A stretch of DNA of 9,820 nt. Origin: JAFGIT01 sp016929465 [NCBI: Candidatus Coatesbacteria bacterium] (GTDB lineage Bacteria > B130-G9). Position numbers and translations under genes: made by a program. The stretch lies in NCBI GenBank assembly GCA_016929465.1, contig JAFGIT010000417.1, positions 1 through 9,820 on the forward strand, read 5' to 3'. This document shows, piece by piece, positions 1-9,820 of this stretch; the first letter of the stretch is position 1; each line of letters starts with the position of its first letter. The notes beneath the pieces are model-generated. The model saw nothing but the letters and a program-made list of their open reading frames with translations, was not told where the DNA came from and made no database searches.

Positions 1-247
1 AATCCGGCTCAATCTCGGCTTCTGCCAGCGAGATGGTTGTCGTGACGTCCGTATCTCTGCCTCGCGATGATGGTGTATATGGTGCATATTGGCGATTATT
101 TGTTGGAATTTGTAGAATGCCGAATAAGGCTTGGTTTCGAGCCGGCCAAGGGCCCTCTCGCATCTCGAAGGAGTCTACTTTAAAGTCAGGAAAAAAAGGG
201 TTCTGCCCCGCCTTAAGGCTCCTAACATGGTCTAATTCGGTGCTCAT
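1..247 (-). CDS. unrecognised protein, N-terminal 82 residues (runs off window)
   Basis: An open frame starts at ATG 247-245 and continues without a stop to base 1, so the gene is cut by the window edge. The predicted protein begins MSTELDHVRSLKAG and is polar, rich in Pro, Thr, Arg and Asp. I see no signal peptide, membrane segment or known motif in the 82 residues available. The start is well supported: AAGGAG lies 8 nt upstream, inside the end of the preceding gene, and the ATG overlaps that gene's TGA as ATGA. This arrangement is typical of translational coupling, so the product probably works with the TIGR04255 protein. Function unknown. I am fairly sure it is a real gene because of the overlap and ribosome-binding site, less so about anything else. 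Confidence 0.72.
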   Translation of the reverse strand, partial: MSTELDHVRSLKAGQNPFFPDFKVDSFEMREGPWPARNQALFGILQIPTNNRQYAPYTPSSRGRDTDVTTTISLAEAEIEPD

Positions 248-1014
248 TTGAATCTCTCCTTCATTTCACCCTCGATCATTCTGAAGAACACCTTATGAAT
301 TAGCTCGTCAGCATCACCCGCCCATTGCGTGATCCCATCAGTCTCCTGGGGCACCTCATCTCCCGTCGCCTCAACGATCGATTCCCACCTCAACAGGTCT
401 CTATCATCCCTTCTGCCCTTTCCGAATCTCAGTCGCAACTGACCTCGGGGATTCTCACTATTGAAGTAGAACGTCGTGTCCAGAGACGTGGGAGCCGCAG
501 ATATCCCTGTATCCACGAAAAGAGCGCTACTTACAGCTAGATCTGTCTTCAAAGTGCGCGCAATGTAATCGGAGATGTTCTCGGACTGATAGTCGAAATC
601 CACTGCATCGATATAGCGCATCATCAGCCGATTGAATCGCGGTCTTCTATTCTCGGTGTATATCTCTAGCAGAGTGGCAACTAGCTTCTCAATGCCGCGA
701 TGGAAGGTTCCTCTTTCGAATCCATCTTTCACTTGATTCAAAGTAACGAGTCCCGGCCCCACCTGAATCAGCGGCCATTCATTGTCACCGGTTCTGAAGC
801 GATGCTGAATTAGGTAGCCAGCCATCTCGGTTGGCATGCTAGCAGCGGGCAGAGGTTCATGGAAGGGATACTCGACCTTGAGCTTCTCGAACAGCCTGCC
901 CGCCAGTATTCCGTAATTCATTTCCGGCTGTCCATTTTGAGGCTGTTGAAGCTGCCAATAAAGCTCGAATATCACCTCGACCAAAGGGGCTTTGCTAAGA
1001 GTCGGGTAGTCCAT
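244..1014 (-). CDS. TIGR04255 family protein
   Basis: This 256-aa protein matches the pattern of the TIGR04255 family, whose molecular function is not established. Visible hallmarks are LSKAPLVEVIFEL at residues 6-18, WPLIQVGPGLVTLN at 80-93, MRYIDAVDF at 132-140, and a C-terminal helix-like stretch ending HKVFFRMIEGEMKERFK. No membrane segment or signal peptide is seen; it is probably cytoplasmic. I chose ATG 1014 because AGGA sits 9 nt upstream. A GTG six codons earlier (1032) keeps the frame but lies upstream of the transcription start expected from the TATAAT at 1035-1040. Its stop overlaps the start of the next gene (ATGA), so the two form a coupled pair. The gene looks more A+T-rich than the metabolic block beside it, which may mean a separate origin. 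Such genes often occur in variable genome regions; a defence role would be speculation. Confidence 0.85.
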   Translation of the reverse strand: MDYPTLSKAPLVEVIFELYWQLQQPQNGQPEMNYGILAGRLFEKLKVEYPFHEPLPAASMPTEMAGYLIQHRFRTGDNEWPLIQVGPGLVTLNQVKDGFERGTFHRGIEKLVATLLEIYTENRRPRFNRLMMRYIDAVDFDYQSENISDYIARTLKTDLAVSSALFVDTGISAAPTSLDTTFYFNSENPRGQLRLRFGKGRRDDRDLLRWESIVEATGDEVPQETDGITQWAGDADELIHKVFFRMIEGEMKERFK

Positions 1015-1034
1015 TGTCTTAGGTCCTAACACAG

Positions 1035-1040
1035 ATTATA
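1035..1040 (-). promoter_or_regulatory. putative -10 box for the TIGR04255 gene pair
   Basis: A perfect TATAAT on the minus strand lies about 20 bp upstream of ATG 1014. Transcription would start near 1028, leaving a leader of about 14 nt that contains AGGA. No convincing -35 is present at 16-18 bp spacing, so the call rests on the -10 and its position only. Confidence 0.4.
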
Positions 1041-1228
1041 TGCGCTGACACGTCTAGAACAGCTTGCTAGTTTCCATAGTTTCATTCAAGACTTCATTTC
1101 CAATATCGAACGAAATCGCGAAAAACACAACTGCCGAGAGTCCCATCTGCGTTCATCAGCAGCAGTTGCCCCCGACTCAGGGGACATCCCGACACAACAT
1201 CGATTAATCAACGCCTTATCACCTCGGG

Positions 1229-2494
1229 CTATTCGACTCTCGGCACGGTCATGCTTCCATCCATGAGGACTACCACGCTGGCGTCCGGACCTGCCTTGTC
1301 CAGGGAGTTGTCCAGCGCTTGCTGTAGAAACGAGTATGGCTCCATGAATGCACTGCGAATGACATAGGGGTCGATGTCGGTTACGGCAATGATCTCAACC
1401 GATAGCGCCGCTCTGGCAAGGCGTCCGGCCTTATGGCAGCCGAAGGTCTTTTCCGTCTTGATGCACTGCAGCACCTGCTCCGGGGTGTCGAACCGTTTCA
1501 GCATGCTGAGGTATGAATCCTCGCCCACGCCATCTGAGCACTTCGAGACCAGGATTATGATTCCACCCTCTTTGACGGCAAGCAGGGCGTGCTCAAGGGC
1601 CTTCTGCATCTGGTAGAGGTCGCGGTCCAGGGGAGGCCTCGCAACTGAGATCACGAGGTCTGCGCGCTCCTCTATCGGGACCACGTATATCTCATCTGTC
1701 TTCTTCGTGGCCGCTAAGAATGAGGCCTCGAGAGCCCCCGCAGTAGCCGTATAAATCCTCCCGGCGCCATCTTGCACGAGATTGATCGAGAAGATTGACT
1801 TATCTTTCAAAAATGAGACGCCCTCGAGCATGTCCTCGTGCACTGGATTTCCCTTCAGGGCAAGCGGCATGACTCCCGGGAGTAACGCCAGGCTGTGGTT
1901 CTGCTCGATGGTCTTGAAGGCAGCAAGACCGGGCAGGAGAGACTTCCGACCGCCGGTATATCCGGCGAAATAGTGCGGCTCAACAGAGCTGAGTATCATG
2001 ATACGGTCCGCATCAATCGCTATCTGGTTGAATGCGACCCTGGTGCCGCGACTGGTGGTTCCCAGCTCCACCATATCTGTGCTACGCCGCGAATCGTGCA
2101 TGAATATGCGTCCAGAAGCGTTCCTAAGCATGTCGCCGAAAATCCAGTTAAGCTCTTCCTTCGATGGAACCGGATGCGCTCCTGTCGCGACCGCATAGAA
2201 AAAATCCGAGTGCCTCGCGGCGTCGAGCAGGACCGGCAATACTCTCGCGGTCGGAGTGGGCCTCGCTGCGTCATTCACGACCAGCAGTATTTCCTCGCCG
2301 GGATGGGAGATGAACTCCGAGAATGACTCGGAATCGACCGGGTCATCAATCGCAGCTTTGACCGAACTGAGATTATCGGCTGCTGTCAAAGGCGCCGGGG
2401 CGACAATCCTCGCCAGGTTCCTCCTGGGAATCCTGAGGCCGATTGCGCTCGATCCATAGGGAATATCTATCTTGATTTGCTTACTTCCTGCCAT
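1229..2494 (-). CDS. larA: LarA-family nickel-dependent 2-hydroxyacid racemase
   Basis: This 421-aa protein is of the LarA (DUF2088) type. Lactate racemase and its homologues invert the C2 centre of 2-hydroxyacids by hydride transfer, using a covalently bound nickel-pincer nucleotide. The key residues of the Lactobacillus enzyme are present at nearly the same numbers: Asp75/Arg78 in NDAARP, His107 in ATGAHPVP, His174 and Lys184 in EPHYFAGYTGGRKSLLPG (Lys184 holds the cofactor), His200 in EQNH (nickel ligand), and Gln295/Lys298 in YQMQKALEHA. It should therefore be catalytically competent if the cofactor is supplied. The cofactor-making genes larB, larC and larE are not in the window. The gene follows icd but is separated from it by a strong terminator, and ATG 2494 has no clear Shine-Dalgarno sequence. 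The substrate cannot be read from sequence; homologues act on lactate, malate and other hydroxyacids. Confidence 0.9.
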   Translation of the reverse strand: MAGSKQIKIDIPYGSSAIGLRIPRRNLARIVAPAPLTAADNLSSVKAAIDDPVDSESFSEFISHPGEEILLVVNDAARPTPTARVLPVLLDAARHSDFFYAVATGAHPVPSKEELNWIFGDMLRNASGRIFMHDSRRSTDMVELGTTSRGTRVAFNQIAIDADRIMILSSVEPHYFAGYTGGRKSLLPGLAAFKTIEQNHSLALLPGVMPLALKGNPVHEDMLEGVSFLKDKSIFSINLVQDGAGRIYTATAGALEASFLAATKKTDEIYVVPIEERADLVISVARPPLDRDLYQMQKALEHALLAVKEGGIIILVSKCSDGVGEDSYLSMLKRFDTPEQVLQCIKTEKTFGCHKAGRLARAALSVEIIAVTDIDPYVIRSAFMEPYSFLQQALDNSLDKAGPDASVVVLMDGSMTVPRVE

Positions 2495-2502
2495 CGGACA
2501 GT

Positions 2503-2531
2503 CTTATATCAGAAGGGCAGGTAAAAAGCAA
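2503..2531 (-). promoter_or_regulatory. putative larA promoter overlapping the icd terminator
   Basis: On the minus strand, TTGCTT (2531-2526) is followed 17 bp later by TATAAG (2508-2503), preceded by TG as in an extended -10 (TGATATAAG). The -35 lies in the T-rich tail of the icd terminator. Predicted initiation is near 2496, two bases from the larA ATG, implying an almost leaderless mRNA. This fits the lack of a Shine-Dalgarno sequence. The -35 is weak (3 of 6). Confidence 0.4.
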
Positions 2532-2559
2532 AATGGGGGACGTTCGATGACGCCCCCCA
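2522..2559 (-). terminator. intrinsic terminator after icd
   Basis: On the minus strand, 17 nt after the icd stop codon, a 10-bp stem TGGGGGGCGT / ACGTCCCCCA (one G-U pair, loop CATCGA) is followed by TTTTGCTTTTT. The G+C-rich stem plus T tract is a textbook Rho-independent terminator. On the plus strand there is no comparable T run, so it acts on icd transcripts only. Confidence 0.9.
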
Positions 2560-2576
2560 AAGCTCGCAGCTTAATG

Positions 2577-3824
2577 CTACATATTCTCGATCAATGCCGA
2601 GCCATACTCAGATGTCTTCAGCTTGGTCGCACCGTCCATCAACCTGTGGAGGTCGTAGGTAACACGCTTCTGATCGATTGTCTTCTCGATGGCCGTGTAA
2701 ACCATCTGCGCAGCCTTCTCCCACTCCAGATGCTCGAGCATCATTACGCCGGAGAGGATGACCGATGTCGGATTGACCATGTCCTTGTTGGCATACTTCG
2801 GAGCGGTTCCGTGGGTCGCCTCGAACAGGGCGATCTTGTCGCCGATGTTCGCGCCGGGGGCCATACCAAGGCCGCCGACCTGAGCTGCACAGGCGTCAGA
2901 GAGATAGTCCCCGTTCAGGTTCGGGAGCGCAACGACTTCATACTCGTCAGTACGGGTCAATATCTGCTGGAGCATGCTGTCCGCGATTCTGTCCTTCATG
3001 ACGATCTTGCCCTCGGGCTGCTTGCCGTCATACTTCTCCCAGAGTTCGTCCTCTGTGATCGTGACGTCGCCGAATTCTTGTCTCGCCACCTCGTAGCCCC
3101 AATCCTTGAAGGCGCCCTCGGTGAACTTCATGATGTTGCCCTTGTGGACGAGAGTCACGCTTGTCTTGTGGCGCTTGATGGCGTACTTGATCGCGGCGCG
3201 GACGAGCTGCTTGGTCGCATGGATGCTGATGGGCTTGATGCCTATACCGGAATCCATTCTGATATTCTTGCCCATCTCGTTGTTGAGGAAGTTGATGACC
3301 TTCTTCACATCCTCGGTGCCCTGCTGCCACTCGATGCCCGCATAGACATCCTCTGTGTTCTCACGATAGATGACGATATTCATCTTCTCGGGGGCCTTCA
3401 CGGGGCTCGGAACACCTCTGAAGTAACGCACGGGTCGGACGCAGCTGTAGAGGTTCATGATCTGGCGCATCGCAACATTGAGGCTTCTGATGCCTCCGCC
3501 AACGGGAGTCGTCAGCGGGCCTTTGAGAGCCACATAATAGTAGCTGATAGCCTCGATAGTGTCCTTTGGTAGAACCTCGCCATATTTCTCGAGAGCGGAA
3601 TCACCAGCGTAAACGTCGAACCAGACGATACGCTTCTTGCCGCCATAGGATTTCTCTACGGCAGCATCGAGCACACGGCGGGTCGCCTTCATTATGTCGG
3701 GGCCTATTCCGTCGCCCTCAATCACCGGAATGATCGGATTGTCGGGAACGACTAGCCTATCACCGTCGAAAGTGATCCTCACTCCATCTGTCGGCGGAGT
3801 TATTTTGTCTAACGACACGGTCAT
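2577..3824 (-). CDS. icd: isocitrate dehydrogenase (NADP+)
   Basis: This 415-aa protein is full length against the 416-aa E. coli enzyme and closely similar along its whole length. It oxidatively decarboxylates isocitrate to 2-oxoglutarate in the cytoplasmic TCA cycle. Substrate residues are visible: Ser114 and Asn116 in RSLNVAMR, Arg120, Arg130 and Arg154, with Tyr161, Lys228 in [13 protein letters not shown] and the metal-binding aspartates Asp306 and Asp310 in NGDYLSD. NADP specificity is indicated by Lys343-Tyr344 (APKYA), Tyr390 and Arg394 ([11 protein letters not shown]), matching the E. coli determinants. Ser114 corresponds to the E. coli phosphorylation site, but no AceK-like gene is in view. 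It starts 25 nt after leuD, with AGGAG about 12 nt before the ATG, and ends at a strong terminator. It is the last gene of a leuC-leuD-icd unit. Confidence 0.98.
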
Positions 3825-3849
3825 TCTCTTTCTTTCTCCTGTCTTTTAC

Positions 3850-4353
3850 CTAATCAAGGTTGAAGTCGCCGTACTTCGCTATGTGGTTTAGCAATCCTCC
3901 ATCCTCGAGGATCTTCTGCATCACCTTCGGTAGCGGCGAAAAAGGTATCTCAATTTTCTTGGTCAAATTCCGAACGATGCCGGCGTCGAGGTCTGCCTCG
4001 AGTTCATCCCCGGCATCGATCCTGTCAGTGTTGCAGATGATTACTGGCATACCGACGTTGATCGCATTCCTGTAGAATATCCTCGCGAACGACTTCGCGA
4101 GAACCGCGCTGACTCCCGCCATTCTGATGATCGTCGGGGCGTGCTCGCGACTCGAGCCCAAGCCGAAGTTGTTTCCGCCCACTACGAAGTCGCCCTTCGA
4201 CATCTTGCCCGCGAATTCTGGATCGGCGTCCTCTAGAACATGCTTCGCCAATTCAGGCAAATTCGAACGCAGGTGAAAGAGCCGTCCAGGCGCTATGTGG
4301 TCGGTACTGATGTCGTCGCCGAATGTCCAGGCCTTGCCTTTCATCTTCTCCAT
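3850..4353 (-). CDS. leuD: LeuD-type hydro-lyase small subunit (probable aconitase/homoaconitase)
   Basis: This 167-aa swivel-domain subunit has the length usual for archaeal-type LeuD/HacB proteins, shorter than E. coli LeuD. Motifs are FGDDISTDHIAP (11-22), GSSREHAP (66-73) and AKSFARIFYRNAINVG (86-101). It pairs with the large subunit to isomerise a tri- or dicarboxylate by dehydration and rehydration. Two details argue against isopropylmalate as substrate. TDHI is the form seen in aconitases, where LeuD proteins usually have TDxII. The substrate loop reads HLRS (27-30), closer to the YLRT reported for homoaconitase than to isopropylmalate-type loops; the Arg is thought to bind the extra carboxylate. 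Being next to citrate synthase and icd, it most likely handles citrate and isocitrate. Its ATG shares one base with the leuC stop (TAATG), so the subunits are translationally coupled. Confidence 0.93.
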   Translation of the reverse strand: MEKMKGKAWTFGDDISTDHIAPGRLFHLRSNLPELAKHVLEDADPEFAGKMSKGDFVVGGNNFGLGSSREHAPTIIRMAGVSAVLAKSFARIFYRNAINVGMPVIICNTDRIDAGDELEADLDAGIVRNLTKKIEIPFSPLPKVMQKILEDGGLLNHIAKYGDFNLD

Positions 4354-5615
4354 TATATCACCTCCCGAGGATCGGTAAGTTTACCGGTTAGAGCCGTTGC
4401 AGCTGCTGTCGCCGGTGAACCCAGATAGATGAATCCCTGGGGATTGCCCATGCGACCAACGAAGTTGCGGTTCTGTGTGGTAAGACAGGCCTCGCCGTCT
4501 CCCAGAACGCCCTGGTGAACACCAACACACGGGCCGCATCCTGGCGGCAGTATCAACGCACCGGAATCGATCAGTGTTTGGAGCGTTCCGTCTTTGAGCG
4601 CGGCGGTCATGACAGCTCTCGATGCTGGTGCAACGAGCAACCTGGTGTCCCTGTCGCGCTTCTTTCCCTTCAGAATGGCGGCTGCCACCTGAAGGTCCTC
4701 GAGCCTTCCGTTCGTGCAAGTGCCTATCACGACCTGGTCTATTTTCACCGGGTCCATGTCACGAATCTGTGTCATTGTCTTGGTGTTATCGACCGTGTGC
4801 GGGAATGAGACCGTCGGCTCGAGCTTGCTGACATCTATCTTGATCACTCGCTCGTATTCCGCGTCTTTGTCAGGCGATATGGGCCTGAAGGCATCGCCCC
4901 TGCCTACACTCTGCAGGTATTCCCTGGTGACTTCATCCGATGGGAATAGGCCGACCTTTGCTCCAGCCTCCACCGCCATATTAGCGATAGTCAGTCGGCT
5001 GGACATGTTCATTGCATCAACTGTCTCGCCGCCATACTCGAGCGACTTGTAAGTGGCTCCATCCGCTCCTATCATGCCGATGAGATGGAGTACGAGGTCC
5101 TTCGGATAAACTCCATCGGGGAATTTACCAGAGACCTGAATTCTGAATGTTTCGGGGACCCTGAACCAGGTCTTACCCAATGCCATCGCAATCGCAACGT
5201 CCGTTGAGCCCATGCCTGTCGCAAAGGCGCAAAGACCGCCTCCAGTGCAGGTGTGAGAATCGGCCCCAACGTGAACGTCGCCCGGGCTGAGATACCCTTC
5301 TGGCATAATCTGGTGGCAAACACCATCACCGACCTCGGACAACACGGCTCCGGTCTTCCGAGCAAAGCGCCTCAGCAGAACATGGTCATTTGAGAGCTCT
5401 TTGCGCGGAGAAGGTGCAGCGTGGTCCAGGAAGAGAACGGTCTTGTCAGGGTGCGCCACTCGCTCCAGCTCTATCTTCTGCAGCTGCCGGACCGCGAGCG
5501 GACCCGTGCCATCCTGCACAAGGCAGACATCGACCGATGCGATGACGAATTCGCCTGCCCGAACAGCCCTGCCGGCGTGCTCGGATAGAATCTTTTCCGC
5601 TAATGTCTGTCTCAT
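4353..5615 (-). CDS. leuC: LeuC-type hydro-lyase large subunit (probable aconitase/homoaconitase)
   Basis: This 420-aa protein carries the [4Fe-4S]-binding aconitase fold and is of the short archaeal-type LeuC/HacA class. The three cluster cysteines are Cys300 (GTCTNGR), Cys360 and Cys363 (PPGCGPCVG). Other signatures are VQDGTGP (33-39), FLDHAAPSP (62-70), GADSHTCTGG (117-126), NRNFVGRMG (382-390) and GSPATAAA (399-406). With the small subunit it would interconvert citrate and isocitrate, or a homologous pair such as homocitrate or isopropylmalate. Position between citrate synthase and isocitrate dehydrogenase, and the absence of leuA or leuB here, favour the citrate reaction. A GGAT/GGAG-rich stretch lies just upstream of ATG 5615. 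The gene begins 88 nt after gltA but beyond a terminator, so it probably has its own promoter. Confidence 0.95.
   Translation of the reverse strand: MRQTLAEKILSEHAGRAVRAGEFVIASVDVCLVQDGTGPLAVRQLQKIELERVAHPDKTVLFLDHAAPSPRKELSNDHVLLRRFARKTGAVLSEVGDGVCHQIMPEGYLSPGDVHVGADSHTCTGGGLCAFATGMGSTDVAIAMALGKTWFRVPETFRIQVSGKFPDGVYPKDLVLHLIGMIGADGATYKSLEYGGETVDAMNMSSRLTIANMAVEAGAKVGLFPSDEVTREYLQSVGRGDAFRPISPDKDAEYERVIKIDVSKLEPTVSFPHTVDNTKTMTQIRDMDPVKIDQVVIGTCTNGRLEDLQVAAAILKGKKRDRDTRLLVAPASRAVMTAALKDGTLQTLIDSGALILPPGCGPCVGVHQGVLGDGEACLTTQNRNFVGRMGNPQGFIYLGSPATAAATALTGKLTDPREVI
4357..4365 (-). promoter_or_regulatory. very strong leuD ribosome-binding site
   Basis: GGAGGTGAT on the minus strand is a 9-base match to the 16S anti-Shine-Dalgarno complement, with 7 nt between GGAGG and the leuD ATG. 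It lies inside the last codons of leuC. It would let ribosomes reinitiate efficiently and keep the two subunits in equal amounts. Confidence 0.85.
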
Positions 5616-5657
5616 CGCTCCATCATCCTAATTACTTATCTTCGAAGACTTTCCGGG

Positions 5658-5663
5658 ATTATA
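5658..5663 (-). promoter_or_regulatory. putative -10 box for leuC-leuD-icd
   Basis: TATAAT on the minus strand lies two bases beyond the T tract of the gltA terminator, with a predicted start about 36 nt before the leuC ATG. The -35 position falls in the terminator stem and is not consensus. The call rests on the perfect -10 and on the need for a promoter after the terminator. Confidence 0.38.
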
Positions 5664-5665
5664 TG

Positions 5666-5695
5666 AAAACGGGGAGCGCCCGAAGGCACTCCCCG
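5666..5695 (-). terminator. intrinsic terminator after gltA
   Basis: On the minus strand, 8 nt after the gltA stop codon, an 11-bp stem CGGGGAGTGCC / GGCGCTCCCCG (one T-G wobble) is closed by a TTCG tetraloop and followed by TTTT. C(UUCG)G loops are exceptionally stable. The T tract is short, so partial read-through into leuC is possible. Confidence 0.9.
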
Positions 5696-5703
5696 GAATT
5701 AAC

Positions 5704-6975
5704 TTAGACCAGGCCGGAAAGTCTGTTGAAGTCAAGAGACTTCGGCCTGTTGATAGCCGTGCCAATGCCACGATGGAGGATCAACTGCGCCATCATGCCC
5801 ATCACGCGGGAGACGCTGAACAGCACTGTGTAGTACTCGAATTCGCGCAGCCCGTAGTGGTAGAGCAGCGAGCCAGAGCCGGCGTCAACGTTCGGCCATG
5901 GGTTCTTGATCTTCGGGAATTCCTTCAAGACCTTCGGAACCACGTCGAAGACTCTCGCAACCGTCATGAACACGGGATCGTCGGGGATGTGCTGCTTGCC
6001 GAACTCGAGGAAGCCAGCAAAGCGCGGATCGGTCGCTCTCAGGACGGCGTGGCCGTAGCCCGGAACCACCTGACCGGCTGCCAGGGTCTCTCTCGTGTTC
6101 TTATCGATCTCTTCCTCGGTCGGAACGCCGCCGAACTTCTCCATAAGCTCCAGGATCCAGTTCAAGCACTCCTGATTCGCCAGGCCATGAAGTGGGCCCG
6201 CGAGACCATTCAGGCCTGCGGATGCTGAGTAATACGGATCGGACAGGGCAGAGGCAACCGTGAAGCAGGTGTAGGCGGAGACGTTGCCGCCCTCGTGGTC
6301 GCAGTGGAACGTCAGATAGAGACGCATCAGCTCGGCGAACTCACCGGTCGGATCCGGAATTCCGAGCATATTGGCGTAGTTGGCACCGAGGTCGAGACCC
6401 ATTGTCCACGGGATCACGTCGCCGTGGCCATAGCGAATGCGATATACGCCGGCCGCGATCGAAGGGATCTTCGCGAGGATGCTGAGGCTGTCCTCGAGTG
6501 CGGGAATCCAATACTGGTCCTTCGTCATTCCTTCTGAGTACATCTTCCTGAAGACGCTCTCGCGCTCCAGCACCAGGATAGCGGTGTTGAGCATAGCCAT
6601 CGGGTGGCTGTCCTCGGGCATCGCCATGAGAACGTCCCAGACGTATTCCGGAACATACGATCTCTTGTCGAGGTCCATCTGAAGGGCTTTCTTGGCCTCG
6701 GCATCGGGGAATTCACCGGTCAATAGGCAGAAGAAAATCTCCTCTGGCCACTTGTCCTTGATCTCGAGTAGTGGATAGCCACGGATAATAAGACCCTTGT
6801 CGGGCTCGACAACCGAAGTGTCGCAAAGAAGCCCCATTACGCCCCTTAGACCACCCAGGAACTGGCCAACGGTGACCTTCGAGATCTCCTTGTCGCCGTG
6901 CTCCTTGGCAAACGACTTGATTTTCTCACGATATTGCGGAATCTGCTCGGCCAACTTCTTCTGCAGAGTTGCCAT
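5704..6975 (-). CDS. gltA: citrate synthase, mitochondrial-like type
   Basis: This 423-aa enzyme condenses oxaloacetate and acetyl-CoA to citrate, the entry step of the TCA cycle. The catalytic triad is visible as His263 (GPLHGLANQE), His309 (VVPGYGHAVLR) and Asp364 (NPWPNVDAGSG). The wording of these motifs, HCDHEGGNVSAY (224-235), and the tail YYTVLFSVSRVMGMMAQ (381-397) resemble animal mitochondrial citrate synthase rather than E. coli GltA. That eukaryote-like form also occurs in some bacteria, Geobacter for example. The N-terminus lacks the long mitochondrial presequence. The start at ATG 6975 has GAGGGAG about 6 nt upstream. Directly after the stop comes a strong UUCG terminator, so gltA is probably monocistronic although its partners leuC, leuD and icd follow in pathway order. 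Confidence 0.97.
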   Translation of the reverse strand: MATLQKKLAEQIPQYREKIKSFAKEHGDKEISKVTVGQFLGGLRGVMGLLCDTSVVEPDKGLIIRGYPLLEIKDKWPEEIFFCLLTGEFPDAEAKKALQMDLDKRSYVPEYVWDVLMAMPEDSHPMAMLNTAILVLERESVFRKMYSEGMTKDQYWIPALEDSLSILAKIPSIAAGVYRIRYGHGDVIPWTMGLDLGANYANMLGIPDPTGEFAELMRLYLTFHCDHEGGNVSAYTCFTVASALSDPYYSASAGLNGLAGPLHGLANQECLNWILELMEKFGGVPTEEEIDKNTRETLAAGQVVPGYGHAVLRATDPRFAGFLEFGKQHIPDDPVFMTVARVFDVVPKVLKEFPKIKNPWPNVDAGSGSLLYHYGLREFEYYTVLFSVSRVMGMMAQLILHRGIGTAINRPKSLDFNRLSGLV

Positions 6976-7067
6976 CGTTTCTCCCTCTTGCTTTTCTTAT
7001 GATTGTTGCAGGTTGAAGTTTTCGCATCTGCGCTATTGATGTGCTCCAACATTCTGAGAGCAACCGA

Positions 7068-7096
7068 CAATAACTAGATAGCGCCGTGATAGTCAA
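7068..7096 (-). promoter_or_regulatory. putative gltA promoter
   Basis: On the minus strand, TTGACT (7096-7091) is followed after 17 bp by TTATTG (7073-7068), leaving a leader of about 85 nt before gltA. The -35 is good (5 of 6) but the -10 is poor, so the exact position is uncertain. It would be the first promoter of the metabolic block. Confidence 0.33.
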
Positions 7097-7282
7097 CCCC
7101 CATTTATTGATATAGTTCCCAAAAAGGGGCGATAATCAAGAGGAGGAGAGGTGACCGGCGCAACCACTATATAATGCCCCTCTCAATGAGACCGAACCAA
7201 TGATCTATCCGCAGACAGCCGTCGGCCAAAGCCTCCTTCTATGCAGAGGGCTTCGCAGGACAAGCATGGCGTCGGGCGATTG

Positions 7283-7402
7283 CGCAGATTTTCGCAGATG
7301 AGAAGCTGTGGATTCCCTTGCTCAGCTTCGCAATCCAACCTTGAACTTTGAACCTTCAACTTTGAACACTCCGTGATCCGCCAATCGATCAGAAGTTCGT
7401 CC
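7283..7402 (+). repeat. dispersed repeat, copy 1 (left of the IS)
   Basis: Ordered blocks here recur right of the IS: CGCAGATTTTCGCAGAT (7283-7299, again at 9360-9376), GGATTCCCTTG plus TCAGCT (7310-7327, again at 9387-9404), a run of TTGAAC/TGAAC words, TCCGTGATCC, and a 25-bp block at 7378-7402 that matches 9327-9351 at 24 of 25 positions. The 25-bp block lies after the others here but before them in the right copy. Confidence 0.75.
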
Positions 7403-7468
7403 ACCAAGGGCCATGAAGCAACACGAAGGGCGATTTAGGAGTGCGGGTAGCTCTCATCGCTTTGGTTT

Positions 7469-7486
7469 GCGGTGACCCGGCACCGC
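7469..7486. repeat. small perfect hairpin
   Basis: GCGGTG and CACCGC form a perfect 6-bp stem around the loop ACCCGG. No T tract follows on either strand, so it is not a terminator. It is probably one of the palindromic repeat units in this region. Confidence 0.45.
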
Positions 7487-7490
7487 TTCA

Positions 7491-7515
7491 ATTGCGGATT
7501 GCGGATTTCGGATTG
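7491..7515 (+). repeat. short tandem heptamer array
   Basis: About 3.5 head-to-tail copies of ATTGCGG, the third changed to ATTTCGG. It lies among other repeat words and just before the IS insertion site. Confidence 0.7.
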
Positions 7516-7535
7516 ATGGCGGTGTAGGGTGGGCT

Positions 7536-7539
7536 TTCG
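7536..7539 (+). repeat. target-site duplication, left copy (TTCG)
   Basis: TTCG directly abuts the left terminal repeat and recurs as TTCG at 9320-9323 against the right terminal repeat. A 4-bp match alone is weak, but it falls exactly at both ends of the 15-bp inverted repeats and restores a symmetric hairpin when one copy is removed. Confidence 0.65.
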
Positions 7540-7554
7540 GAGGCTGTGCCATAA
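7540..7554 (+). repeat. IS terminal inverted repeat, left
   Basis: GAGGCTGTGCCATAA, identical over 15 bp to the reverse complement of 9305-9319. Similarity fades after this point (ATTTCG against ATCGGG). Confidence 0.88.
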
Positions 7555-7728
7555 TTTCGATTCAGGGTGTATTTGGATCGGCCATTTCGCTTTTTTTTTG
7601 ACTTGGCCCGGTCGCGGATTGGTCAATGATTCCTATATTCTGTGTATCTGAGGTTGAATGTCTCCTATAACGTCATTAATGGAGCTCTATAATTGGCTAT
7701 TTGCCTCCATGACTGGCCATTATCTCGG

Positions 7729-9189
7729 TTATGCAGCGAGAAGTTCGGCCCATGTACATCGCGTCTGGGTTAAGATTGTGTGGATTCGCCTTAGCACCAA
7801 TGCAATTGAGGCTAGGAAAGCCTCGATTTTGGCTCCTGAAAGGCCCCTGAGGTTAAAACGTCTCAGCCCAAGATTGTGCTTTAGATGTCCGAAGATGTGC
7901 TCAATTCTCTTCCGGCTCTTAAGACGTTCTTGATACTCTGACTTCAGGAATCGCCGCCGATATTCATCGAGCCACGGATATTCATAATTTCGCTCCATTT
8001 TGTAAAACCTATTGCGGGAACCGCCCAAACAGATCTCTCGTTGCGGACACTCGTCGCAGGGATTCACCGCCTCGTAAATTCGGTGAATACGCCCGTCCTT
8101 GCGGTGGCATAATCGTGTGAAAACTAATTCATTGCCCAAAGGACATCTGAAGATATCTCGCTCCGAATCATAGCGAAATCTCTCGCCCTGAATGAACTCG
8201 GACAGTTTGGACTTCCGCATTGCTGAAACCGTATCGCTATCCGCTACACAAGCATCTTTGCCTTCATTCTCAAGACGCCGAAGCTGTTCTGAATTGAAAT
8301 AGCCACTGTCCCCGTCAACTGCTTCCACTGTCTCGCAAGTGTTCATCTCAACTTCGTCAACCACCCTACAAAGGCTATTATTGTCGACTGCGTCTTGAGT
8401 AACATCGCAGGCCAATGGTATCCCTCTCTCCTTGTCAACTGCCACCTGAACATTGTATGAAAGCCCAATCTTGCCGGTCGCACCGTCTCGCATGAAACGA
8501 CTCTCGGGGTCTGTCAGAGAGACTTTCGTGGAACCGTTAGCCTCGCCTTCTTCAACCGCTTGGCTGCATCTATCAACTAAACGCTGGAGACTATCAATAC
8601 CCAGAAAATTCTTGCTAGATTCGATGCCCATAGAAGACAACTTCTCCCGAAGCTCTTCCTCCTCGTCCAACAAAGCGGAAGAACTCATCCAGGCTTCTAT
8701 TGACGCCTTCACCTCATCAAAGAACTTCGAGTTAAGTGTCTTGGCATTGCTCGCGCTAGCTCTGATCTTACTCCCATCGACTATTACATGATCGGCCCTG
8801 ACAACACCGGCCAAAATCAGACGACGAATCAACTCAGAAAACACCGAATGCAAAAGCGCCTCGTTCTCCGATCTAAACCTACAAATCGTCCGAAAACTCG
8901 GCGCGGTTCCCCTGCAAAGGTGAATGAAGGCAAGGTTCTCTCGACATTCTGCTGCGATCCTACGACTGCTCCGAATGCCCCGAAAATATGCGAAAATGAG
9001 AATCTTCAGAAGCATGCGAGGATCATAGATAGGTGCTCCACGAGCCGCATTACCTCTAGCGGATGGCCCCAATGCCAAAACTTCGACAATCTCGTCGATA
9101 TGAAAACAAATGTGACCTATGGGAAGACGGTCTGCTGCCTTATGACCAAATATCTCTGACTGAGAAGAAGGATAGTTTCTTATAGGCAT
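7729..9189 (-). CDS. IS1182 family transposase (DDE)
   Basis: This 486-aa DDE transposase catalyses cut-and-join of the element's ends. The N-terminal DUF772-type region (about 50-110: YDPRMLLKILIFAYFRGIRS, then RTICRFR) is typical of IS1182 and IS5-like enzymes. The likely catalytic residues are Asp138 (IVDGSKI), Asp294 (VDGDSGYFN) and Glu430 (RKRIEHIFGHLKHNLGLRRF). A four-cysteine cluster, CDECPQREIC at 378-387 with Cys349 upstream, is also usual in the family. A charged, probably coiled segment lies at 155-190. No frameshift or internal stop is seen. The start at ATG 9189 has GAGGA 9 nt upstream. The gene ends 189 bp inside the left terminal repeat. The ATG is part of an 11-bp inverted repeat that could block translation of read-through mRNA. 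Confidence 0.96.
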   Translation of the reverse strand: MPIRNYPSSQSEIFGHKAADRLPIGHICFHIDEIVEVLALGPSARGNAARGAPIYDPRMLLKILIFAYFRGIRSSRRIAAECRENLAFIHLCRGTAPSFRTICRFRSENEALLHSVFSELIRRLILAGVVRADHVIVDGSKIRASASNAKTLNSKFFDEVKASIEAWMSSSALLDEEEELREKLSSMGIESSKNFLGIDSLQRLVDRCSQAVEEGEANGSTKVSLTDPESRFMRDGATGKIGLSYNVQVAVDKERGIPLACDVTQDAVDNNSLCRVVDEVEMNTCETVEAVDGDSGYFNSEQLRRLENEGKDACVADSDTVSAMRKSKLSEFIQGERFRYDSERDIFRCPLGNELVFTRLCHRKDGRIHRIYEAVNPCDECPQREICLGGSRNRFYKMERNYEYPWLDEYRRRFLKSEYQERLKSRKRIEHIFGHLKHNLGLRRFNLRGLSGAKIEAFLASIALVLRRIHTILTQTRCTWAELLAA

Positions 9190-9262
9190 GATGATACGTC
9201 CTCAGATATAATAGATAATGTTCTTATACACATCACTATATATAACTATACATCATCATGCC
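9185..9262 (-). promoter_or_regulatory. start-codon-masking inverted repeat of the transposase gene
   Basis: GGCATGATGAT at 9185-9195 covers the transposase start codon (9187-9189). It is perfectly complementary to ATCATCATGCC at 9252-9262. In minus-strand RNA the two would form an 11-bp stem with a 56-nt loop and bury the AUG. The upstream arm lies in the spacer of the putative promoter, ahead of its expected start, so only transcripts entering from outside the IS would contain both arms. Confidence 0.6.
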
Positions 9263-9274
9263 AAATATAGTCAA
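9245..9274 (-). promoter_or_regulatory. transposase promoter
   Basis: On the minus strand, TTGACT (9274-9269) and TATAGT (9250-9245) are separated by 18 bp; each matches consensus at 5 of 6 bases. Initiation is expected near 9238, about 50 nt before the transposase ATG and inside the element. Confidence 0.6.
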
Positions 9275-9304
9275 TGGATAAATCATATATTCGGAGTCCC
9301 CGAT

Positions 9305-9319
9305 TTATGGCACAGCCTC
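9305..9319 (-). repeat. IS terminal inverted repeat, right
   Basis: TTATGGCACAGCCTC, the exact reverse complement of 7540-7554. It forms the transposase-proximal end of the element. Confidence 0.88.
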
Positions 9320-9323
9320 TTCG
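9320..9323 (+). repeat. target-site duplication, right copy (TTCG)
   Basis: TTCG adjoins the right terminal repeat and matches 7536-7539. The flank continues AGCCCGCC, complementary to GGTGGGCT on the left side. Confidence 0.65.
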
Positions 9324-9326
9324 AGC

Positions 9327-9453
9327 CCGCCAATTGATCAGAAGTTCGTCCGCAGATGACGCAGATTTTCGCAGATTAAGGCCAAAGGATTCCCTTGATC
9401 AGCTGTCGCCAGCCAACTTCGAACCGTGAACCGTGAACATTCCGTAATCCATC
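9327..9453 (+). repeat. dispersed repeat, copy 2 (right of the IS)
   Basis: It begins with a 25-bp block matching 7378-7402 (24 of 25), then CGCAGATGACGCAGATTTTC, GGATTCCCTTG, TCAGCT, three TGAAC-type words and TTCCGTAATCC. Apart from the leading block, the order is the same as at 7283-7381, with diverged spacers. No protein is encoded. Confidence 0.75.
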
Positions 9454-9516
9454 CATACTAAAACCAACCTGCCTCTTCATCTGCGCAAATCTGCGTCATC
9501 TGCGGACAAAAACTTC
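9341..9516. repeat. long inverted repeat
   Basis: The arm 9341-9376 (GAAGTTCGTCCGCAGATGAC, then GCAGATTTTCGCAGAT) is nearly the reverse complement of 9479-9516. From GTCCGCAG onward 28 of 29 bases pair; the outer GAAGTT is conserved with a 2-nt insertion. About 100 nt separate the arms. These are two oppositely oriented copies of one dispersed repeat word, able to form a long hairpin. Confidence 0.75.
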
Positions 9517-9741
9517 ACAGCAATACAACCGGCCCCAGACAAATCCGCAACATCTTGAAACCTTTTTCTCGCCCCATTTTTGATCTTTGCACCATCTGAC
9601 ACCGATTGAGTCGGCCGAATTATCCAGATATTTCGCCCGATTTGCATGAATCGCGATGAATCAATTTCGAAAAAAAACTGAGCAATATTGCGATAAAATA
9701 GCTTGACGTGGTCAGATTTCCCTGGCATTTTGTTTCTAGTG
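9517..9741. other. non-coding stretch with no recognised feature
   Basis: A+T-rich sequence with homopolymer runs and only a weak hairpin near 9602-9614 (CCGATTGAGTCGG). TTGACG occurs at 9703-9708 but has no matching -10 at 16-18 bp. I see no gene or RNA here. Confidence 0.5.
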
Positions 9742-9769
9742 TTGCGTTCCCAAATTGAGGTGGTATAAT
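9742..9769 (+). promoter_or_regulatory. promoter of the right-edge gene (extended -10)
   Basis: TGGTATAAT contains a perfect -10 (9764-9769) with the extended TGn element. TTGCGT lies 16 bp upstream as a partial -35. Initiation near 9776 would give a leader of about 16 nt carrying AGGAGG (9778-9783) before ATG 9792. The -10 is itself the left arm of the adjacent hairpin. Confidence 0.6.
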
Positions 9770-9792
9770 CCTCGATTAGGAGGATTATATCA
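9761..9792 (+). promoter_or_regulatory. hairpin masking the ribosome-binding site
   Basis: TATAATCCTC (9764-9773) and GAGGATTATA (9780-9789) pair perfectly around GATTAG. With flanking bases the stem reaches 13 bp including one G-U pair, from 9761 to 9792. It traps most of AGGAGG and reaches the first base of the start codon. mRNA begun at the local promoter near 9776 would lack the left arm and stay open. Confidence 0.7.
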
Positions 9793-9820
9793 TGTCTAGA
9801 AAGATTCGTAAGATTGTGCT
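9792..9820 (+). CDS. start of an unidentified gene (runs off window)
   Basis: Only the first ten residues are in view: MSRKIRKIVL, a basic N-terminus. The start is supported by AGGAGG (9778-9783) 8 nt upstream and by an extended -10 promoter just before. The promoter/hairpin arrangement is like that of some transposase genes, and the position next to an IS and repeats would suit a second mobile element. The fragment is too short to identify. It is the only plus-strand gene I support here. Confidence 0.55.

Follow-up and report, generated by a model that had tools for sequence, protein, structure and literature searches.

An IS1182-family insertion sequence at the centre of a REP-like hairpin, and dyad-centred insertion among its relatives

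The DNA analysed here, which we refer to as the window, is a stretch of 9,820 nucleotides of a Candidatus Coatesbacteria assembly (GCA_016929465.1, contig JAFGIT010000417.1, positions 1 to 9,820). It contains an insertion sequence whose boundaries were set by its terminal repeats (Table 1). The transposase scored 312.3 bits against the IS1182 model NF033551 of NCBIfam (cut-off, 270) and exceeded the cut-offs of domains PF05598, PF13751 and PF01609, which places it in the IS1182 family and among the DDE transposases. D138 and D294 were invariant in an alignment of 12 rows, and we read E430 as a candidate third catalytic residue. The terminal inverted repeats GAGGCTGTGCCATAA, of the type expected for IS1182, are identical at 15 of 15 positions, and TTCG on each side forms a 4-bp target duplication. 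These observations bear out the initial annotation, which had described an IS1182-type element within the loop of a palindromic hairpin. The element is present as a single copy in its own assembly (423 contigs, 86% complete). The window also contains a tandem 14-nt repeat at 7337-7364 and a 36-nt inverted repeat (9345-9380 and 9475-9510, 92% complementary, 94 nt apart) made of CGCAGAT-type repeat units.

Table 1. Features of the insertion site in the window.
Feature	Position	Strand	Evidence
GTAG tag immediately 5' of the hairpin (REP-like)	7524..7527	+	GTAG/GTGG at the same place in 8/10 unoccupied copies
Left stem arm GGTGGGCT	7528..7535	+	Sequence, fold
Loop TTCG, left copy of the 4-bp target duplication	7536..7539	+	Sequence
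IS1182-family insertion sequence, 1,780 bp	7540..9319	-	Terminal repeats
Terminal inverted repeat GAGGCTGTGCCATAA, downstream end of tnp	7540..7554	+	15/15 match
Transposase gene, 486 aa, DDE type	7729..9189	-	PF05598, PF13751, PF01609; NF033551
Terminal inverted repeat, upstream end of tnp	9305..9319	-	Identical 15/15
Loop TTCG, right copy of the target duplication	9320..9323	+	Sequence
Right stem arm AGCCCGCC	9324..9331	+	Sequence, fold
Repeat context CAATTGATCAGAAGTTCGTC	9331..9350	+	7 places in the assembly at ≤2 mismatches, one at 7382-7401

With 7540-9319 and one TTCG removed, the site reads GTAG-GGTGGGCT-TTCG-AGCCCGCC and forms a stem of 8 bp, one of its pairs being T-G, around the 4-nt loop TTCG, exactly as the initial annotation had proposed. 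Folded as DNA, the joined site reached -8.1 kcal/mol (z -2.25), a value equalled or bettered by 3 of 200 shuffles. Eight of eight pairs across a 4-base gap were found at 3 of 9,700 window positions. Furthermore, the flanks of the window element paired at 8 of 10 positions, a score that no swap with the other 32 surveyed elements reached. Both stem arms are retained and TTCG is duplicated, an arrangement that differs from the stem-loop replacement of the IS1272 type. The window had no Rfam match. The three other genomes analysed from the same family yielded no orthologous empty site, because only short stretches and the gene at 5704-6975, presumably coding for citrate synthase, align there. As the site is intergenic, the suggestion that insertion here does little harm is plausible.

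A search of the 3.19-Mb own assembly for GGGCT-N(3-8)-AGCCCGCC revealed 10 unoccupied copies of the hairpin, compared to 1 for the control pattern. These exact-core copies make up a small family, dispersed as GTAG-tagged REPs are, and 8 of the 10 carry GTAG (3 copies) or GTGG (5 copies) directly before the stem. Their loops are TTCC (8), TTTC (1) and TTC (1), never TTCG. The best match to the left flank of the window covered 25 of 27 bases (L166) and the best match to the right flank 23 of 27 (L168 and L177), while a single copy, L178, matched at 24 of 27 on the left and 21 of 27 on the right; CAATTGATCAGA, the first part of CAATTGATCAGAAGTTCGTC, also lies 3' of the unoccupied hairpins L168 and L178. 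The target in the window is a REP-like dispersed palindrome with the build of GTAG-tagged REPs, and its unoccupied copies act as paralogous empty sites.

A scan of genome contigs with the single window transposase found no relative, and a closer search with a two-row alignment recovered one locus, on the contig of L004 itself, and none in the viral contigs searched. The closest transposase found, L004, is 54% identical in amino acid sequence and is encoded in G002, one of the four genomes of the family (G000-G003), by an element with the ends GAGGCTGTCTAATAAGT. Both ends adjoin the GGAA of GTAG-CCGYAGGC-GGAA. L004 has no target duplication, and its flanks are the halves of two facing hairpins, so that a later deletion or recombination is needed to account for the site. 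The two ends of L004 thus seem to lie in separate GTAG hairpins that face each other, the DNA between them having presumably been lost through adjacent deletion or recombination; this reading, two facing hairpins joined through the element, replaced that of a duplication-free insertion into a single palindrome. One of the two ends of a related MITE, L065, adjoins the same GGAA, bringing the total in G002 to 3 of 4 ends. This MITE (contig C163, reverse strand, approximately 1167-1307) is about 141 bp long and has IS1182-like ends GAGGCTGTCCAATAAGTC; the left end is the one that adjoins GGAA, half of the loop of a GTAG hairpin, and its right end adjoins no hairpin half. Unoccupied hairpins of the CCGYAGGC-GGAA kind in G002 comprise L045, which is imperfect, and L049, one facing pair. 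At two mismatches or fewer, TAGCCGYAGGCGGAA exceeded its control in G001 (88 vs 29) and G003 (45 vs 16) and did not in G002 (27 vs 33) or G000 (30 vs 29); we therefore count few copies of the hairpin repeat in G002. A second family of GTAG-tagged hairpins, CCGTAGGC-GGAA/GGGA-GCCTACGG and relatives, was observed in all four genomes (among L042-L071), with facing pairs in several places.

Multi-copy relatives provided a larger series of sites. In genome G346 one IS1182 element, G346a, whose protein is 28% identical to that of the window, is present in 34 full-length copies. Target duplications measure 4 bp in 32 of the 34, 5 bp (CGGGG) in one, and consist of unequal repeats in one (L114). The flanks fit TCCCGC[N4]GCGGGA, with exact arms at 15 of 34 sites. 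Of the first 6 flank positions, 5 or 6 are paired at 29 of the 34 sites and 3 or 4 at the other 5; the central four bases are variable (most often CCGG, 10 of 34). The sites are in part non-independent (L115, L192 and L193 are alike, as are L183 and L184), and a shortened copy, L195, was left out of these counts and of the flank-swap test, from which L114 was excluded as well. Exact sites without an element numbered 99, with 0 for the control. Swapped flanks paired as well as the elements' own (p 0.26), as follows from arms that are conserved in sequence, and recognition of sequence would suffice here. In G337 the element L013 lies within GAGAGGGGG-[CAAG]-CCCCCTCTC, a palindrome found unoccupied 25 times (control, 0). 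Element-free arrays of TCCCGC-N4-GCGGGA were seen in G346:C1 around 547358-547637, 1728283-1730310, 1758873-1759915 and 3008964-3009645, regularly spaced, e.g. at 88, 111 or 40-124 bp. Two other IS1182 elements, one in G346 (L122-L129) and one in G064 (L130-L136), have no clear duplication and lie beside A/T tracts, G/C runs or hairpins, at sites reminiscent of IS1272-type replacement.

A separate IS1182 lineage, present in G064 and on plasmids of Peptoclostridium, Bacteroides, Metabacillus, Priestia and Enterococcus, inserts into A-tract/T-tract terminator-like hairpins. Its ends differ from the GRGNCTGT-like ends that are common among the surveyed relatives. We tested 11 of 12 loci, L141 being dropped because its duplication has one mismatch; 7 plasmid records were taken of 1,033 with a match of any identity, and L208, which represents the same site as L207 in a different strain, was not used. 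Duplications measure 8 bp at 7 of the 11 loci and 9 bp at the other 4, and they are centred on the terminator dyads. Own flanks paired at 8.36 of 10 positions compared to 5.61 for swapped flanks (permutation p 5e-5), and this pairing peaked at offset 0 and fell to 3.6 and 5.7 at one base to either side. One locus, L206, scored 4 of 10. The arms differ between loci yet remain complementary, which points to symmetry rather than a fixed sequence as the feature that is shared.

Natural empty alleles allowed filled and empty sites to be set side by side in 8 comparisons at 4 plasmid sites (Enterococcus 2, Priestia 1, Rhizobium 1), and the palindrome was present without the element. The Priestia empty allele has a 14-bp stem and the 4-nt loop AAAA, and the duplication GTAAAAAC is 8 bp; in the Rhizobium allele the GGCC duplication lies in the middle of a 10-nt loop with 5-bp arms. 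The empty alleles of L206 and L213 are (imperfect) palindromes, and the L213 insertion is centred. In the Enterococcus plasmid loci L206 and L207 the element end is separated from the duplication by an additional G or CG, perhaps a remnant of donor sequence or the result of an unsure element end. Overall, the dyad marks the centre of insertion, and the length of the duplication (mostly 4 bp, or 8-9 bp) follows the lineage of the element and not the loop. Duplication size nevertheless varies within one element, being 4 or 5 bp in G346a and 8 or 9 bp in that of G064. Furthermore, the 5-bp duplication of L103 (G346a) and the 9-bp duplication of L138 (G064) match the unpaired stretch, so that loop size may still have some say. 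The Priestia and Rhizobium empty alleles led us to set aside the idea that the loop mainly determines how long the duplication is, with L103 and L138 leaving it some room. These empty alleles also qualify the earlier proposal that the transposase targets hairpin loops in dispersed repeats: insertion at the centre of a dispersed palindrome held for the window and for several relatives, whereas what the sites have in common is the dyad centre and not the loop.

The survey of the family covered a non-random sample of 33 elements, in which end motifs were defined after some elements had been seen, loci without a clear end pair were omitted, and L206 and L207, with nearly identical transposases, were both included; own flanks paired at 5.91 of 10 positions compared to 3.80 for swapped flanks, and none of 20,000 permutations gave a value as high. 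Scanning for terminal inverted repeats without a motif yielded many spurious pairs. Nine of the 33 elements, including that of the window, reached the 99th percentile of the swapped values. Among the 23 elements with a duplication of at least 3 bp, 10 had at least 7 of 10 positions paired and the remaining 13 no more than 6 (L011, L014, L016, L022, L024, L027, L034, L206, L209, L211, L213, L214 and L215). ISPmo1-like plasmid elements among L209-L215 are weakly palindromic at best by the flank-pairing test. Sister elements L014 (G059) and L022 (G044) share GAGCCTGTCCGAGTAA ends and CTAG duplications, themselves palindromic, with no further clear stem. In a tree of 39 transposase rows the palindrome users were spread over several distinct lineages; as long or poorly supported branches are common deep in the tree, it serves as a description and not an ancestral reconstruction. 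Dyad targeting is not universal in the IS1182 family. As to whether further copies lie in similar palindromes, the own assembly has a single copy, several relatives are palindrome-centred, and 13 of the 23 surveyed elements with a duplication are without a clear stem.

In the window a 4-bp duplication coincides with a tetraloop, which makes loop and duplication identical. We consider it likely that the window transposase takes the dyad axis of palindromic DNA as its insertion point, with a stagger of about 4 bp, and that its target was one of the dispersed GTAG-tagged REP-like tetraloop hairpins, hence a duplication equal to the loop. Base-exact centring was present in several IS1182 lineages, and its recurrence in distant relatives suggests that parts of the family choose their landing sites by symmetry. 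The transposome would recognise the two-fold symmetry of its target, most likely as a hairpin or cruciform that supercoiling extrudes or that forms in single-stranded DNA. The two 3' ends would then be joined symmetrically about the tip with the stagger typical of the lineage, so that a stem arm stays on either side. For reading symmetry without sequence, such a structure is the simplest means. More generally, and tentatively, several IS1182 lineages may read two-fold symmetry, as an extruded hairpin or cruciform, and not sequence, joining their ends at a lineage-typical distance; IS1272-like replacement and centred duplication would be two outcomes of one transposome. We hold this general model to be quite possible, short of probable.

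Sequence could also be what is read, each half of a symmetric transposome binding one arm in double-stranded DNA with no hairpin extruded, so that palindromy would matter only through the likeness of two half-sites. The conserved TCCCGC/GCGGGA arms of G346a, with their variable central four bases and equal pairing of swapped flanks, fit this account, as do the targets of the window and of L013, each a repeat of its own genome, and a duplication length that is largely lineage-bound, as in ordinary staggered insertion. In the terminator lineage, however, the arms vary from site to site while complementarity is kept, and the window and L004 transposases, 54% identical, use hairpins of differing sequence. 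Recognition of sequence by a symmetric dimer is thus a live rival for lineages with conserved arms; as the explanation overall it is possible, if on the doubtful side.

Random insertion followed by persistence only in terminators and intergenic repeats agrees with the position of the element between genes in the three terminator-lineage records annotated on both sides, but persistence cannot give base-exact centring on the dyad, where mean pairing is 8.4 of 10 and an offset of one base lowers it to 3.6 or 5.7, and we regard this explanation as improbable. The arms, being inverted repeats directly outside the element, might alternatively be the outer part of its own inverted repeats, carried along with it. 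Such hairpins exist element-free in the own assembly, G002, G346 and G337, though, the empty alleles are palindromic, and arms differ among copies of one G064 element. The palindrome was accordingly rejected as a part of the element, this being refuted for the lineages with empty alleles and highly improbable in general. As for a chance coincidence of hairpin and duplication, short stems do arise by chance, and three 8/8 stems with 4-nt loops occur elsewhere in the window; against this stand a frequency of about 3e-4 per position, the recurrence in relatives, the flank swaps and the excess of unoccupied hairpins over the control. Its probability is negligible, and the view that the match of loop, duplication and element ends goes beyond chance was upheld.

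Taken together, these results replace the loose claim of palindrome targeting by some IS1182 elements with a testable rule, namely dyad-centred insertion with a lineage-typical duplication size and, for one lineage at least, with arms that can vary freely. They offer a DDE system in which recognition of a hairpin or cruciform could be separated from recognition of sequence, explain how terminators and REPs turn into docking sites for insertion sequences, and aid the calling of element ends and empty sites in draft genomes.

Targeting of hairpins by IS1182 relatives is already in print, as is insertion with duplication at the symmetry axis of REPs for other elements. In our literature search, which covered sources other than the main family reviews, no description of centred insertion with duplication for IS1182 elements was found among the matches listed. 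The REP-targeting elements ISPsy8 (IS3 family), ISRm22, ISPpu9/10 and ISPa11 have a fixed insertion point in REP palindromes (PMC1525189). ISPsy8 and ISRm22 resemble the window element in inserting at the symmetry axis, with duplications of 3 and 6 bp, respectively, and IS1182 does not appear in the main text of that article. The GTAG-tagged REPs described in PMC3733652 have a GTAG/GTGG-type tag, a short stem of mostly 6-9 bp and a short loop, as in the window, and correspond to its target and not to its element. ISPye18/MITEPye1 of Paracoccus yeei (PMC11578231) shares IS1182-type terminal repeats, 4-bp direct repeats and an intergenic position with the window element; the word stem 'palindrom' is absent from the main text of that report.

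Close parallels are IS1272 and TnSha1, IS1182-family elements of staphylococci that target hairpins or inverted repeats, several of them terminators, with little or no conservation of primary sequence (PMC4923244, PMC5678879), although 3 of 13 older IS1272 copies had non-palindromic targets. Like the window element, they combine a transposase of this family with hairpin targets, and recognition of a hairpin or cruciform has been argued for IS1272 (PMC5678879). In these systems, however, the hairpin is partly or wholly lost and there is no duplication, whereas in the window the arms are kept and a 4-bp duplication lies at the centre. In pathway c of the model in PMC5678879, joining takes place at the 5' side of the loops and nothing but the loop is duplicated; we noticed no example of it in the available text of that article, and the window carries the product that this pathway predicts. 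Siguier et al. 2015, as cited in PMC4923244 and PMC5678879, stated that some IS1182-family members target palindromes. Our observations concern the same family and the same broad claim, for which centring, a duplication size that goes with the lineage, and dispersed-repeat targets are documented here.
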